From: Nitrospira sp. CR1.2
Lineage (GTDB): Bacteria; Nitrospirota; Nitrospiria; Nitrospirales; Nitrospiraceae
Assembly: GCA_014055495.1 (NCBI GenBank)
Contig: WIAG01000032.1
Coordinates: 1 to 40,326, forward strand
Direction of reading: 5' to 3'
Length of the DNA stretch: 40,326 bases
Shown here: positions 3,977 through 20,597 of the stretch, one piece after another
How the letters are laid out: the number at the start of each line of letters is the position of its first letter
Numbering within the stretch: the first letter of the stretch is position 1
The notes under the pieces: model-generated
What the model was told of the DNA's origin: nothing
Seen by the model: the letters and a program-made list of their open reading frames with translations, nothing else
Databases searched by the model: none
Program-made: the position numbers and the translations under genes

Positions 3977-4444
3977 ATGACGATGTCTAGTCGACGCCTC
4001 ACAGCTCTTCTCCTTTGGTTCTGCGCGACTCTCCTGTTGCAGCTGGGATTCTCCGTCGCCGGCGAACCACCCAGCACCCTGCAGGAGGCGCCGGTCTCCA
4101 CCCGCGCTTCCGTGTCCGACCAGGCCCCAGCCGCCCAAGATGGATCCGTTCGCGCCGGGCCCCAGGCCACCCAGCGGGATGTTCGTGACGCCGTCCCTGC
4201 AGCCGCCCGGGAGACCCTCAAGGCCATTGAGGAACGACACGGGGAACCCCTACCTGGGTATGTCGGAGGAAGGACGTTCCAGAATCGCGAGCGTGTACTG
4301 CCGCGCGGTCGGTATCGTGAATACGATGTGCAGCCGAAAGTGGCGGGGAGAAATCGTGGAGCCGAACGGATCGTCATCGACCAACGCAGCGGCAAGGCCT
4401 ATTACACGGCCGATCACTATCGCTCTTTTATTCCGATGAATTGA
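3977..4444 (+). CDS. Exported barnase-like guanyl-specific ribonuclease
   Basis: A 155-residue protein whose last 60 residues follow barnase and RNase Sa closely. FQNRERVLP is followed by YREYDV with the general base E115, AERI with R131, and TADHYRSF with the catalytic H147; these match barnase E73, R87 and H102. The enzyme family cleaves single-stranded RNA after guanosine. Residues 1-29 have basic MTMSSRR, a hydrophobic stretch and a possible cleavage after SVAG, so export is expected. Residues 30-70 look like a flexible linker rich in Ala, Pro and Gln. The next gene, 6 bases after the stop, encodes a barstar-family protein, the known inhibitor of this fold. All catalytic residues are present, so it should be active. 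A second ATG lies two codons downstream. Confidence 0.9.
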   Translation: MTMSSRRLTALLLWFCATLLLQLGFSVAGEPPSTLQEAPVSTRASVSDQAPAAQDGSVRAGPQATQRDVRDAVPAAARETLKAIEERHGEPLPGYVGGRTFQNRERVLPRGRYREYDVQPKVAGRNRGAERIVIDQRSGKAYYTADHYRSFIPMN

Positions 4445-4450
4445 GGAGAC

Positions 4451-4987
4451 ATGTCGATTACCGCACTCCAATCGATCAAGAAACCCTGGGCGCATCTCCT
4501 GGTGCATGCCGAGGGAGAAGCGCTCGATAAACTACTCTCCGTCCCCTCTCATTTTGTTACCAAGACCGTCTCCGGCAAGAAATGCAAAACCAAGGCTGGG
4601 TTGCTGGATGAGTTCAGCCGGGTCTTCTCGTTCCCGGATTATTTCGGCCACAACTGGGATGCCCTCGAAGAATGTTTGGCGGACCTCGACTGGTTGCCGG
4701 CGAAGGGCTACCTCGTCGTAGTCACGGACGCCGACCAGGTGCTGACAAAGCCCGACGAGGAGGACGATTTCGAAACCTTCGTCGAAATTTTGAGCGAGGC
4801 CGGCGAGGCCTGGAGCCTGAAGGAATCCGACGATGCCACGGGCAACGGCCTCCCGTTTCACGCAGTCTTGGCCGTATCCGAGCGGCACAAACGCAGTCGT
4901 CACAATTGGTTCGCTCCACCCTTGGCCATGGAACGAAAGACGGCCAAATCCACCGGGGCGAAGGGATCTAAACCAAGCGGTCGCTAG
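4451..4987 (+). CDS. Barstar-family RNase inhibitor
   Basis: A 178-residue soluble protein with the barstar core at residues 50-90: LLDEFSRVFSFPDYFG, then HNWDALEECLADL. D70 aligns with barstar Asp35 and E74 with Asp39, the residues that plug the barnase active site, so the acidic character is kept with Glu in place of Asp39. There is no signal peptide, so it should stay in the cytosol and protect the cell from RNase that has not been exported. It is longer than classical barstar (about 90 residues). The extra part includes an acidic KPDEEDDFE segment and a basic Lys/Ser/Gly-rich tail. A GGAG ribosome site precedes the ATG, and the RNase stop is 6 bases upstream, so the pair is co-transcribed. 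Confidence 0.9.
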   Translation: MSITALQSIKKPWAHLLVHAEGEALDKLLSVPSHFVTKTVSGKKCKTKAGLLDEFSRVFSFPDYFGHNWDALEECLADLDWLPAKGYLVVVTDADQVLTKPDEEDDFETFVEILSEAGEAWSLKESDDATGNGLPFHAVLAVSERHKRSRHNWFAPPLAMERKTAKSTGAKGSKPSGR

Positions 4988-7720: not shown

Positions 7721-7735
7721 CACCGTCGCTCGTCT

Positions 7736-7853
7736 CTCGTGAAGCGTCGTTCGGATGCATTTCGTATCAAAACTGATACGAAATGCATCCATTCAGATAC
7801 AATCCCCGGCACCTGAAGCGCGGATTCATCGTTTCACGAACGACGTTTCACGA
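7736..7853. repeat. Inverted repeat pair of the TTCACGA family
   Basis: The 18 bases CTCGTGAAGCGTCGTTCG at 7736-7753 are matched at 16 of 18 positions by the reverse complement of 7837-7854. The same words recur at 8112-8200 and at 20165-20195 and 20569-20592, so this is one member of a dispersed intergenic family. The interior holds the hairpin at 7753-7790 and no gene. Confidence 0.7.
7753..7790. repeat. Perfect 17-bp hairpin downstream of hemL
   Basis: GGATGCATTTCGTATCA, the 4-base loop AAAC, then the exact reverse complement of the first arm: a perfect 17-bp stem. It lies between the convergent hemL and small acidic protein genes, so it may act as a two-way terminator or protect mRNA ends. 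No T run follows on either strand, so a Rho-independent terminator of the usual form is not supported. Confidence 0.8.
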
Positions 7854-7864
7854 TTCACGGCTAT

Positions 7865-8111: not shown

Positions 8112-8200
8112 GTGAATCGTCATTCGTCGTTCGTATCTCGCGGGGAGCAGCCAGACGCTCGGACCTTCCGGCGAACGACGCTTCACGAGATACGCTTCGC
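8112..8200. repeat. Repeat cluster: gene-less copy of the 20.2-kb element
   Basis: Left arm 8112-8141 contains CGTCGTTCGTATCTCG. The 12 bases CCAGACGCTCGG follow at 8152-8163. The right arm 8173-8200 contains CGAACGACGCTTCACGAG and ATACGCTTCG. The same three parts in the same order bound the four-helix-bundle gene at 20165-20592: CGTCGTTCGTATCTCG at 20165, CCAGACGCTCGG at 20552-20563, and an arm with ACGAGATACGCTTCACG at 20569-20585. Here only about ten bases separate the left arm from the 12-base box. This looks like a version without the gene, or the target into which a gene was inserted. Confidence 0.7.
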
Positions 8201-11794: not shown

Positions 11795-14700
11795 TCAGTT
11801 CGCGCAAAGCCCCGCCACGAGGTGGGAGAGCTCCACGAGGTCGAAAGGCTTCTTCACGAATCCGCACAGTCCCTGCTCCAATAGTTCTTGATCGACCTGC
11901 CCGAACGCGTGCCCGGAGAGGAGAAGCACCCGCGCTCTCGGATCGATCTCGCGCAGTACGTGAAACACATCCACTCCGTTCATACCTGGCATGGTTACAT
12001 CCAACAGCACGACATCGAACCGCTCCTGATGCTGGTAGGCCGCAATGGCGCGCGGACCGCTGTCGGCCGTTGTGATCGTATATCCGAGACCGCCGAGAAA
12101 CTCCCCGACCATGTCGCGAATGGCCACCTCATCGTCCACCAGCAACACTCGTCCGCTCCCGCGCTTCGCGGCCTCCCGATGAGGAGGCCGCGTCGTCACC
12201 TCCAAGCCCGCGGCCGACAGCGGCAAGTGAATACGAAACGCGGTGCCCTGTTCCCCGGTCACCAGTTGTATGCCGCCGCCGTGCTCGCTCACCGTTCCGT
12301 AGACGGCGGCCAGTCCGAGCCCATTTCCCGCCTCACCCTTCGTCGTATAAAACGGTTCAAACAAATGCTCGAGGTATTCACTCGCGATGCCGCTACCTTG
12401 ATCGGCGATGTTCATCACCAAATACCGACCGGGCTCGACGGGAGGCCGCAGCTCCGCCGCCTTGACCTGATCCACCTCGTGCTCGTAGGTCGAGATGGTG
12501 ATGGCGCCGCCGCGTGGCATGGCATCTTTAGCATTGATCAGCAAATTCAGGACCATCGCCTGCAACTGCGCGGAATCCCCGACCACGATCGCATACGGCG
12601 CCTCCAACGCCATTCTCATGCGAATCGAGTCGTGCCAATTGGTATTGGCCAGTTCCAATGTCGTGCGGATGAGCTGATGAAAATCCAACGGCTTCGACTC
12701 CAGCTTCGCTTTCCGACCGAACGCCAGCAGATTCGCCGTCAACGTCGCTGCGCGAGCCGTCGCCTCCTGAATCGCACGCAATGGCTTCAACTGTTCCTCA
12801 TCCTGGGTGCGCTGCTCCATCAATTGCGCATACCCTTGAATTCCGCAGAGCAGGTTGTTGAAATCATGTGCGATGCCGCCGGCCAATCGTCCGATGGCTT
12901 CCAAGCGTTGCCCGTGACGCAAGCGATTCTCGAGTTGATGCCGACGCGTCATATCCGTAATCGTGACCAGCGCACCCTCGACCGTGCGGTCTTCCGTGCG
13001 GTAGGGAGCGAGACGTAATAAGTAACAGCGCCCGCTGGACAGCTCAATGCTTTGCTCGTGCTGCATGCCTTCATCGATCACTTGACGAACGAAGCGGTGC
13101 ACCCCGATTTCGTCGGGCACATCCGAGGTAATGTCGCTGAGCTCGCGCCCCACATCCCGCGGGATGAGGCGAAACAGAACGGTGGCAGCCGTATTGAACC
13201 GTCGAATCCGGCAATGGCGATCGACGAAAATGATGCCCACGTCCGTGTTGTTGAGCAAGTTGTCGTGATCGCGGTTCAGATCAATCAAGATTCGGTTCTT
13301 CTGGTCGTATTCAGAATTCACGGTGTGCAGCTCTTCGTTGACCGATTGCAGCTCTTCGTTGGCCGATTGCAGTTCTTCGTTCGCGGACTGCAGTTCCTCA
13401 TTGCTCGATTGCAATTCTTCGTTCGTCGTCTGCAGCTCTTCAATCGTCGTTTGCAGGTTTTCCCGGGTCACTGACACTTCCCGCTCCAGATCCATGAGAC
13501 GCTGGCGATACGAATCCTCCAACTCGGAAGGCAGGGTCACCCCCTCCGCGGCAAGCGCAACGTCCTGCGAGGCGTGGAGCACAGGTTGAGCGGACAAGAG
13601 GACCGACGTATTGCCATGGCGGTCGCTGAACGGCGTCGCCGTCAAGATCAGGGTCGTGGGCTTGTCCTCCAGCGTGAGGTGGATCGGTTCAGAACGGCAC
13701 ACCTGCTTCGCCATGGTGGCGCGGTGGATCAAGCCGGTCGCGGACGATTCAAGCGCGTCTGGGAACAATTTGACGGCTCGGTCGGTCTGCCGGCCTTCTC
13801 GAATGCACAGGAGACGCGAGCCGTCGCCGAACACATGGGCCAAACGTCCGTGATCGTCGAGCAGCAGCCCCGCCACGTGGCATTGCGTCAAAATGCTGTC
13901 GTAGACGGAGAGGAGACGACTCTCGCCGATTTCTACTGCCTCAGCACGGAGGCGCGGCTGTCTCACCGTCGTGTGAATGAGAGAGGATTTCCGCACCATC
14001 GGTGAATAGGAGGCCGCTGCTCCCCGCAGTTTGCGAAATACACGGAGCCGGGGATCCACGACGGTGAAGTCCTCGTGTAGCGATCCGATCCCCTCACTCA
14101 CACCGAGGAGCAAGATCCCCTCCGGATTCAAGCAAAAGCGAAACGTGCGCAGCGCCAACTCCTGCGCCGGAGTATCGAAGTAGATCAGCAGATTGCGACA
14201 GCTGATCAAATCGAGCCTGGTAAACGCCGGGTCCACCAGCACATTGTGCGGCGCAAAGACCACCATCTTCCGTAGGAGTGGCGCCACACGGCCGCTCTTA
14301 CTCGTCAGCCGCACCACATAACGCTCGAACAATTCCGGAGGGATTGCCGCAAGTTCCTCTTCGGGATAGGTTCCAATGCCTGCGGTTTCAAGCGCCGAGC
14401 GATGGACATCGGTGGCGAACACCCGCAACTGCCCCTGATAGTTTTGCGCAGCGGCAGCCTCGTGCAGCAACATCGCCAGCCCATACGCTTCTTGACCGGT
14501 GGCGCAACCGGGCACCCAACATCGTATCTCCTTCTGCTCCAGCCGGGTCCGCACCAGTTCGGGAATGACTTCGGCGCGGAGGTGTTCAAACACACGTGTA
14601 TCGCGGAAGAACGACGTCACGCCGATGAGCAAATCATCGAGCAAGGCCTTCGATTCCTCCTGATCCTCCGATAACAGTTTCAAATACAATTCCAGGTCGC

Positions 14701-19763: not shown

Positions 19764-20164
19764 CAGCTCCTCGTGTGTGGAGGTCCTTGTAGCGCAGCCA
19801 GGGTGAGTTTGTCGAGCCGCTTTACTTTCAGCTGATCATCTACCGTCACCAGCTTGGCCGCCCCCTCCACCACAATACGCCCGCTCTCCCGCTCCCGCAA
19901 TACATGCGCAAAGGTAAACGACGCCTGACCCGAATCCACCAACGTCGTGTTGATCACCAACGTGTCCCCGTACCGACCAGGCGATCGATAGTCTGCTTCC
20001 GCATGCACTACCACAAACTGCGTCCCCTGCTCGCGCAGGCCTGCGACCGATACTCCCCGTTCTTCGAGATACTGCGTCCTGGCCCGCTCGAAATATTTCA
20101 GATAGTTCGCGTAGTAGACCACCCCGCCGCAATCGGTGTCCTCGTAGTAGATGCGAATCTCCAT
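19763..20164 (-). CDS. YbgC/FadM family acyl-CoA thioesterase
   Basis: A 133-residue hot-dog-fold protein starting MEIRIYYEDTDCGGVVYYANYLKYFERART, the family signature, whose second Asp in EDTD is the catalytic residue. FVVVHAEADYRSPGRYGDTL and a following strand-rich part complete the fold. Such enzymes hydrolyse acyl-CoA thioesters; the E. coli YbgC gene sits with tol-pal, but no tol-pal genes are present here. The start codon directly follows the left arm of the repeat element, so the promoter may lie in or beyond the repeat. Its stop overlaps the start of the 37-residue membrane peptide. Confidence 0.9.
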   Translation of the reverse strand: MEIRIYYEDTDCGGVVYYANYLKYFERARTQYLEERGVSVAGLREQGTQFVVVHAEADYRSPGRYGDTLVINTTLVDSGQASFTFAHVLRERESGRIVVEGAAKLVTVDDQLKVKRLDKLTLAALQGPPHTRS

Positions 20165-20592
20165 CGTCGTTCGTATCTCGTGAAGCGTATCTCGTCAGAG
20201 CCGCTTGATGAGATTTCTGAGCATCTTAGACTCATGGTCGAGTCGCTCCAGAAGCTCGTCTCGCTGGGCCATCGCAATGAATGCGAGCTCGTGAGCGATT
20301 TCAATGTGAGTTTCCAATTCAGCACAGGACCCAAGCGCGACATAGAGACATTGTCGGTATTCCGCATTGTGCGTCCGATTAAATCCCTCCGCGACATTTG
20401 CGGGAATCGATACCGCCGCACGACGCATTTGGGACACCAATCCGTAGATTTCTTCTTTGGGTAACTCCTTGGTCACTCGATAGACATCGACCACGATACT
20501 CTTCCCGAGTTTCCATATTTCAAGAGCCCGAAAGTTTCGTATCTTTTCCATCCAGACGCTCGGGCCCAACGAGATACGCTTCACGTACGACG
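20165..20592. mobile_element. Candidate element: inverted repeats around a four-helix-bundle gene
   Basis: A perfect 17-bp inverted repeat, CGTGAAGCGTATCTCGT at 20179-20195 and its complement at 20569-20585, lies within longer related arms (20165-20195 and 20569-20592). Between them sits one gene of the four-helix-bundle (S23/IVP) family and the 12-base box CCAGACGCTCGG (20552-20563). The same arms and box occur without the gene at 8112-8200. There is no transposase and no recognisable target duplication, so mobility is inferred from the filled and empty versions only. Confidence 0.5.
20195..20551 (-). CDS. Four-helix-bundle protein (23S rRNA intervening-sequence type)
   Basis: A 118-residue protein from the ATG at 20551. 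The family signature is plain: MEKIRNFRALEIWKLGK at the start, then QMRRAAVSIPANVAEGF and EYRQCLYVALGSCAELETHIEIA. The family was first seen as open frames in intervening sequences of 23S rRNA genes and is related in fold to the Avd protein of diversity-generating retroelements. Its biochemical role is not known. An upstream in-frame GTG at 20584 would add 11 residues read from the repeat arm, which I reject. The stop codon falls at the edge of the left arm, so the gene fills the element completely. No rRNA sequence surrounds it. Confidence 0.88.
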   Translation of the reverse strand: MEKIRNFRALEIWKLGKSIVVDVYRVTKELPKEEIYGLVSQMRRAAVSIPANVAEGFNRTHNAEYRQCLYVALGSCAELETHIEIAHELAFIAMAQRDELLERLDHESKMLRNLIKRL

Positions 20593-20597
20593 GGCGG

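Follow-up and report, generated by a model that had tools for sequence, protein, structure and literature searches.

To our knowledge, the S23p/IVP proteins have been without a settled function since the intervening sequences (IVSs) of rRNA were described more than 25 years ago. The DGR protein Avd is a pentamer that is bound to reverse transcriptase and RNA. In the IVS of Coxiella, three tandem heptamers and a degenerate fourth are located just before the start of the S23p gene, and the number of heptamers varies between strains (PMC4990558). Tandem heptamers are also present in cyanobacteria and in giant sulfur bacteria. No protein is known to bind these heptamers, and one study asks for such a protein (PMC4679880).

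The insert analyzed in this manuscript is located near 20.2 kb of a stretch of 40,326 nt (the window, meaning the whole stretch of DNA that was analyzed), which belongs to a Nitrospira genome of 4.06 Mb in 167 contigs. Related arms were identified at three sites of the window, 7725-7858, 8112-8200 and 20165-20592. The arms are built from one degenerate heptamer, GT-NNNN-C, in inverted arrays; examples of the unit are GTGAAGC, GTATCTC and GTCGTTC. A reading of the sequence alone (the sequence-only reading) had placed a third set of related arms at 7736-7853; this set was found, and its GTNNNNC arrays extend over 7725-7858. The same reading had described a gene between the arms at 20.2 kb and none at 8.1 kb, and this was confirmed: the 20.2-kb arms enclose the open reading frame 20195-20551 on the minus strand, and the 8.1-kb arms enclose none. 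The features are as follows.

7725..7752, plus strand: left arm of the third set, units GTCGCTC GTCTCTC GTGAAGC GTCGTTC.
7831..7858, minus strand: right arm of the third set, minus-strand units GTGAATC GTGAAAC GTCGTTC GTGAAAC.
8112..8140, plus strand: left arm of the gene-less insert, an array of four GTNNNNC units; 8112-8139 in 7-nt steps reads GTGAATC GTCATTC GTCGTTC GTATCTC.
8151..8162, no strand assigned: second occurrence of the 12-base box, in the loop, an exact 12-mer.
8172..8200, minus strand: right arm of the gene-less insert, minus-strand units GCGAAGC GTATCTC GTGAAGC GTCGTTC.
20165..20195, plus strand: GTNNNNC array, one arm of the gene-bearing insert, adjoining the start of a ybgC-like gene; units GTCGTTC GTATCTC GTGAAGC GTATCTC G, the four complete units being read in 7-nt steps at 20166-20193.
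20195..20551, minus strand: IVP/S23p gene, 118 aa, four-helix bundle (PF05635, TIGR02436, fold match 2GSC).
20552..20563, no strand assigned: 12-base box, here the leader that immediately precedes the start codon of the IVP gene, unconserved in other copies.
20564..20592, minus strand: opposite GTNNNNC array, the other arm of the gene-bearing insert, units GTCGTAC GTGAAGC GTATCTC GT.

The pattern (GTNNNNC)x3 had 11 matches in the window compared with 0.42 expected, and a count of 11 was reached in 0 of 100 shuffles. All 11 of these three-unit arrays fall within the 7.7-, 8.1- and 20.2-kb sites. The features at 8.1 and 7.7 kb lack a gene and belong to the word family of the 20.2-kb insert. The 7.7-kb arms enclose a separate stem-loop at 7753-7790 (GGATGCATTTCGTATC..GATACGAAATGCATCC), which is located downstream of hemL and is conserved in most species of the genus.

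Several other features were observed in passing. A separate repeat of approximately 150-200 bp with CAGGATGC..GCATCCTG-like ends is present downstream of hemL in G005, G010, G011, G012, G013, G015, G018, G020, G023 and G027 (L089-L106) and is absent from that position in G000, G001, G004 and G021. Ends related to those of this repeat also occur in L010, L018, L028 and L030, and in other G000 loci similar ends enclose GTNNNNC arrays. Elsewhere in the window, positions 3977-4987 on the plus strand encode a secreted, barnase-like ribonuclease (PF00545) and, after it, a homologue of barstar (PF01337), which form a toxin-inhibitor-like pair. At positions 13305-13483, a large gene for a CheB/CheR-type sensor kinase contains a 21-nt unit repeated seven times in tandem and in frame; the repeats encode a NEELQS-like coiled coil and are of an ordinary kind.

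The 12-base box, CCAGACGCTCGG, has exactly two exact occurrences in the window, one at 8.1 kb and one at 20.2 kb. The probability of a shared 12-mer is 0.0004 for one loop and, by our own estimate, approximately 0.02 after allowing for about 40 hairpins. Among 60 loci compared, the box was identified in only three, all of which are overlapping stretches of the same window. In addition, the box was decayed in the other gene copies (G001, G024 and G006) and in most orthologues of the 8.1-kb hairpin. It was rejected as a structural part of the element because it is decayed elsewhere and absent from the other loci. The sequence-only reading had noted left arm, box and right arm in the same order at both sites; the related arms were confirmed, and this three-part order was not confirmed as a unit. 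The shared box hints weakly that the 8.1-kb copy may be an internally deleted derivative.

The 20.2-kb gene encodes a member of the 23S-rRNA-intervening-sequence protein family, PF05635 (S23p/IVP; E 1.8e-35), which is also matched by TIGR02436, “four helix bundle protein.” It is the sole PF05635 gene in the genome. The AlphaFold2 model of the window IVP (pLDDT 97) matched the structure of XCC0516 (2GSC) with a TM score of 0.92, and BT_0352 (2RLD) was also matched. The 2GSC and 2RLD structures each contain five chains, which is consistent with a pentamer. Purifying selection acts on the IVP genes, with dN/dS values of mostly 0.04-0.27; one close pair has a dN/dS of 0.59, with a dS of only 0.07. 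The 20.2-kb insert is placed between two protein genes, outside any 23S rRNA gene, and no transposase was found inside it. In the RNA fold of 20160-20596, the arms close the whole insert (z -3.3). The 8.1-kb hairpin RNA was no more stable than shuffles (z +0.3), and its candidacy as an unusually stable RNA was rejected. In 95 of 106 loci, the IVP gene is in sense with both of its co-directional neighbours; in the control, 181 of 241 other adjacent long-gene pairs elsewhere in the same loci were co-directional with it (p 0.002). The IVP genes of cyanobacterial plasmids are inside operons, for example cas6-cas4 and cas10-cmr3.

The junction between the upstream gene, which ends in ...SLPKFPTLSL, and the ybgC-like thioesterase gene was compared in 26 relatives, and orthologous sites both with and without the insertion exist. 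The junction is empty, consisting of the 6 bp CCGACG, in G018 and G023, contains a short remnant or gene-less hairpin in G003, G004, G007, G008, G010, G012, G017, G020 and G021, and contains an unrelated 138 bp in G026. A type-1 IVP with GTNNNNC arms occupies the junction in G000, G001, G024 and G025, and in G006 a type-1 IVP is truncated by a 210-bp gap with both arms kept. Quite different IVPs with GCNNATR-like arms are located there in G005, G027, G013, G011, G028, G014, G015, G016 (partial) and G022 (frameshifted). These junction states need 10 changes on the tree of the flanking genes. G001/G025 (type 1), G011/G028 (type 3) and G018/G023 (empty) belong to one clade of approximately 5-8% divergence. 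Recombination between species could produce part of this turnover, but even then several insertions or replacements are required to account for the different loads at a single junction. The ends of the filled inserts overlap the CCGACG of the empty junction, and no clear target-site duplication could be distinguished. The orthologues of the 8.1-kb hairpin likewise contain arrays of the GTNNNNC family, arrays of the GCNNATR family or almost nothing. At another junction, one IVP is common to two genera (L032-L035, L037 and L126).

Arrays were counted genome-wide with a four-CGT pattern. This pattern had 86 matches in this genome and 0 in the reversed-pattern control, and in 28 relatives it had 0-218 matches per genome and 0-3 when read backwards; these counts represent pattern matches in genomes that are mostly drafts. 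With 86 array matches and one IVP gene in the same genome, gene and arms are found apart. In the sampled arrays, seven cores (GAAG, CGTT, ATCT, CTCT, GAAA, GAAT and CGCT) account for 73% of the units, and the kind and order of units vary between arms and between copies, even inside one genome. The arms were rejected as one fixed repeat, with exact 14-mer counts that were low and scattered compared with the 86 degenerate-unit matches. BLAST searches with the arms against four 400-kb genome samples gave weak results except for G042; BLAST is ill suited to arms as degenerate as these. Neighbouring arrays in G001 are convergent in 11 cases and divergent in none, and the convergent spacing is 44-105 nt in nine cases and about 470-500 nt in two. 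A search of 50,697 phage records for phage carriage gave no match. In one genome of the genus, a GCNNATR hairpin was observed nested beside or inside a GTNNNNC array (L321, near position 1500).

The numbers of arrays were also compared with the kinds of IVP in each genome. With cut-offs chosen post hoc, GCNNATR arrays numbered 42-88 in the five genomes that have a type-3 IVP, intact or partial, and were usually far fewer elsewhere (p 0.001). CGTNNNN arrays did not follow type-3 IVPs (p 0.13) but did follow the IVPs with GTNNNNC arms (p 0.009, with p 0.76 for the non-cognate control). GCNNATR arrays were not numerous where only other IVPs occur, and they were high despite the lack of a type-3 IVP in G002 (66) and G023 (47). 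Phylogenetically independent pairs pointed in the same direction throughout (about 2.7 to 0 and 4.4 to 0) and were too few for significance. The near-complete genome G023, with no PF05635 match, contains 92 CGTNNNN array matches in addition to its 47 GCNNATR matches. Thus, arrays outlive, or do without, a resident IVP.

The IVP genes examined come from Nitrospirota, some ten further phyla and cyanobacterial plasmids, and nearly all of them are enclosed by inverted arrays of 7- or 8-nt words. The flanks examined were those of 44 Nitrospirota genes, 79 named loci and 13 loci on cyanobacterial plasmids. The named loci are from Bacteroidota, Planctomycetes, Desulfobacterota, Verrucomicrobia, Lentisphaerae, Clostridiales and others, and all belong to one IVP subfamily. 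The inverted-repeat score between flanks, which depends on the flank windows of 220-250 nt, had a median of 33 in Nitrospirota compared with 17-18 for mismatched flanks and for neighbouring ORFs (p 2e-21 and 5e-18). For the named loci the median was 32 compared with 19 for the control, and 41 of the 79 were above the 95th percentile of this control, whose scores are inflated by the words that the loci have in common. The score was 29-59 in 12 of the 13 cyanobacterial plasmid loci. The arms were autocorrelated at lags 7 and 8 and at no others (z 24 and 23, respectively). Of the 88 loci with a score of at least 26, 84 had 7 or 8 as their best lag, compared with about 16 in shuffles. The arm words themselves differ and include GGCACAGA/GGCACAAA, GTAACAA, GGGTCCA, GGTGAAGG, GTGGCGA, GCTGTCA, TCAGGAG, GGGAACA and others. 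Between Nitrospirota and the other phyla, protein similarity predicts word similarity (rho 0.24; 4 of 1000 permutations). Thus, the arm scores, the periodicity and the word correlation together indicate that arms are near-constant in the IVP family and that the word tends to track the protein clade. None of the cyanobacterial plasmid loci had TAACTGA as an arm word. At the cas6-cas4 junction of CRISPR operons in Pseudanabaena and Anabaena (L339/L347), IVP genes with differing arm words, AGCTTTT and GGTGACA, were observed, making this a second junction with different loads.

Several explanations were weighed for these observations. A chance likeness of two unrelated hairpins in the window is hardly conceivable; the box by itself is only a marginal match, as chance would allow, but the excess of three-unit arrays in the window (11 for 0.42 expected) and of array matches in the genome (86 for 0 in the reversed control) refutes chance for the arms. 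A system of the REP/REPIN type, in which short palindromes are moved by a RAYT (Y1 HUH) transposase and the IVP gene is a passenger, would fit arrays that are dispersed, intergenic, inverted and present in many copies per genome, and Y1_Tnp genes are present in 19 of the 29 genomes of the genus. We nevertheless regard it as very unlikely. No Y1_Tnp match was obtained in G027, whose 218 arrays are the highest count of all, or in G012, G015, G022, G024 and G026; the arms are also arrays of 7-nt words and not tagged REPs of 20-40 bp (cf. PMC3733652). RAYT-type Y1 transposases are not needed for a high array copy number, because G027 reaches its count with no Y1_Tnp match, and dependence on RAYT was rejected. 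The gene-bearing, internally deleted (G006, with its 210-bp gap) and gene-less copies form a series like that of a conventional MITE, which would have the fixed terminal inverted repeats of an insertion sequence, a transposase acting in trans and a captured gene. However, the arm sequence is unfixed even within one genome, genes of this one family are found between unrelated arms in many phyla, and there is no clear target-site duplication at the 20.2-kb junction, although the overlap of the insert ends with CCGACG blurs the view there. A MITE origin is therefore extremely improbable in our judgment.

Arrays might also spread by themselves, through slippage, template switching or gene conversion, with the IVP as a host gene or a passenger prone to capture. 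The arrays of G023, present without any IVP match, would be expected under such a process, and tandem heptamers are known without an associated gene (the TAACTGA repeats, PMC4679880). Capture of a passenger leaves unexplained the arms at nearly every IVP gene in many phyla, the word that tracks the protein clade and the cognate pattern of copy number, and we consider this explanation unlikely. The account that we judge to be probable, taken as a whole, is that of an IVS-like insert with an IVP gene in arrays of its own word, with gene-less relatives and with the rRNA IVS as a special case. Counting against this account are the arrays of G023, which persist with no IVP match, the independent pairs, which fall short of significance, the unremarkable RNA stability of the 8.1-kb hairpin, and recombination as a possible source of part of the junction turnover. 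The sequence-only reading had proposed a small non-autonomous element that can carry the gene. This was borne out insofar as the repeat is dispersed and may or may not carry the gene, but the arms are not fixed, and mobilization by a transposase is unsupported (G027, without Y1_Tnp).

In the IVS-like account, the 20.2-kb feature would be an intervening-sequence element, with a four-helix-bundle gene between inverted GTNNNNC arrays, and the 23S rRNA IVS would be a member of the same class that landed in rRNA. Most likely, the IVP recognizes its own word array, which it would bind in the transcript or in single-stranded DNA. One word per subunit of an IVP ring is possible and would explain short tandem units with both fixed and free positions. 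Gene-bearing inserts may spread between genomes and may help to seed or maintain gene-less copies in trans, and gene-less copies may arise partly by internal deletion. Insertion of the DNA is assumed to be performed by host functions or by a trans-acting enzyme. A broader generalization can be offered only tentatively, and we lean slightly against it: IVP elements would be bacteria-wide mobile inserts without a classical transposase, their ring-forming four-helix-bundle protein would recognize arrays of its own 7-8 nt word, and their derivatives would include the 23S rRNA IVSs and at least a part of the orphan heptamer repeats known from cyanobacteria and other bacteria.

The tie between protein clade and 7- or 8-nt word makes the questions of IVP function and of heptamer binding directly testable by a binding assay, and word-array inserts offer an account of the origin of rRNA IVSs. 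No paper linking IVP to word arrays was found among the open-access papers that were searched.

The inserts share features with several known systems. MITEs likewise include gene-bearing copies and internally deleted, gene-less copies; unlike MITEs, the inserts described here have neither terminal repeats of one sequence nor a known partner transposase. The inserts share with REP/REPIN and RAYT their dispersal, inversion, intergenic sites, tens to hundreds of copies and one gene-bearing copy, but no Y1 transposase is present in the insert or needed in the genome, and the arms are arrays of 7- or 8-nt words. The REP tag is GTAG (or CGTC), and the arms described here can begin with CGTC, yet they are arrays of units; CGTC REPs have stems of 8-9 bp, unlike these arms (PMC3733652). 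The DGR protein Avd (4DWL, 8UBE) has the same four-helix-bundle fold as the IVP model, with a TM score of about 0.77, weaker than that for 2GSC. However, identity is about 11%, the window IVP did not match the Avd model NF033474 at E 0.001, and no RT-like ORF or template/variable repeat was seen beside it. The cyanobacterial STRR and the TAACTGA repeats of Beggiatoaceae are also intergenic tandem 7-nt words, and cyanobacterial IVP genes are flanked by tandem 7-nt words, a likeness to STRR by description only. STRR and TAACTGA repeats are described as direct repeats without a gene, unlike the inverted IVP arms. Lastly, in contrast to the 23S rRNA IVS, the IVP inserts described here are located between protein genes, mostly inside operons, and have dispersed gene-less copies and many different words. 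The 23S rRNA IVSs of Coxiella, Leptospira and others nevertheless carry the same protein family, S23p/IVP, and, like the 20.2-kb insert, are about 430 bp in length, closed by an inverted repeat and have their ORF sense to the host transcript. Tandem heptamers next to the ORF, which have been published for Coxiella alone (PMC4990558), have their counterpart in the GTNNNNC arrays of the 20.2-kb insert.
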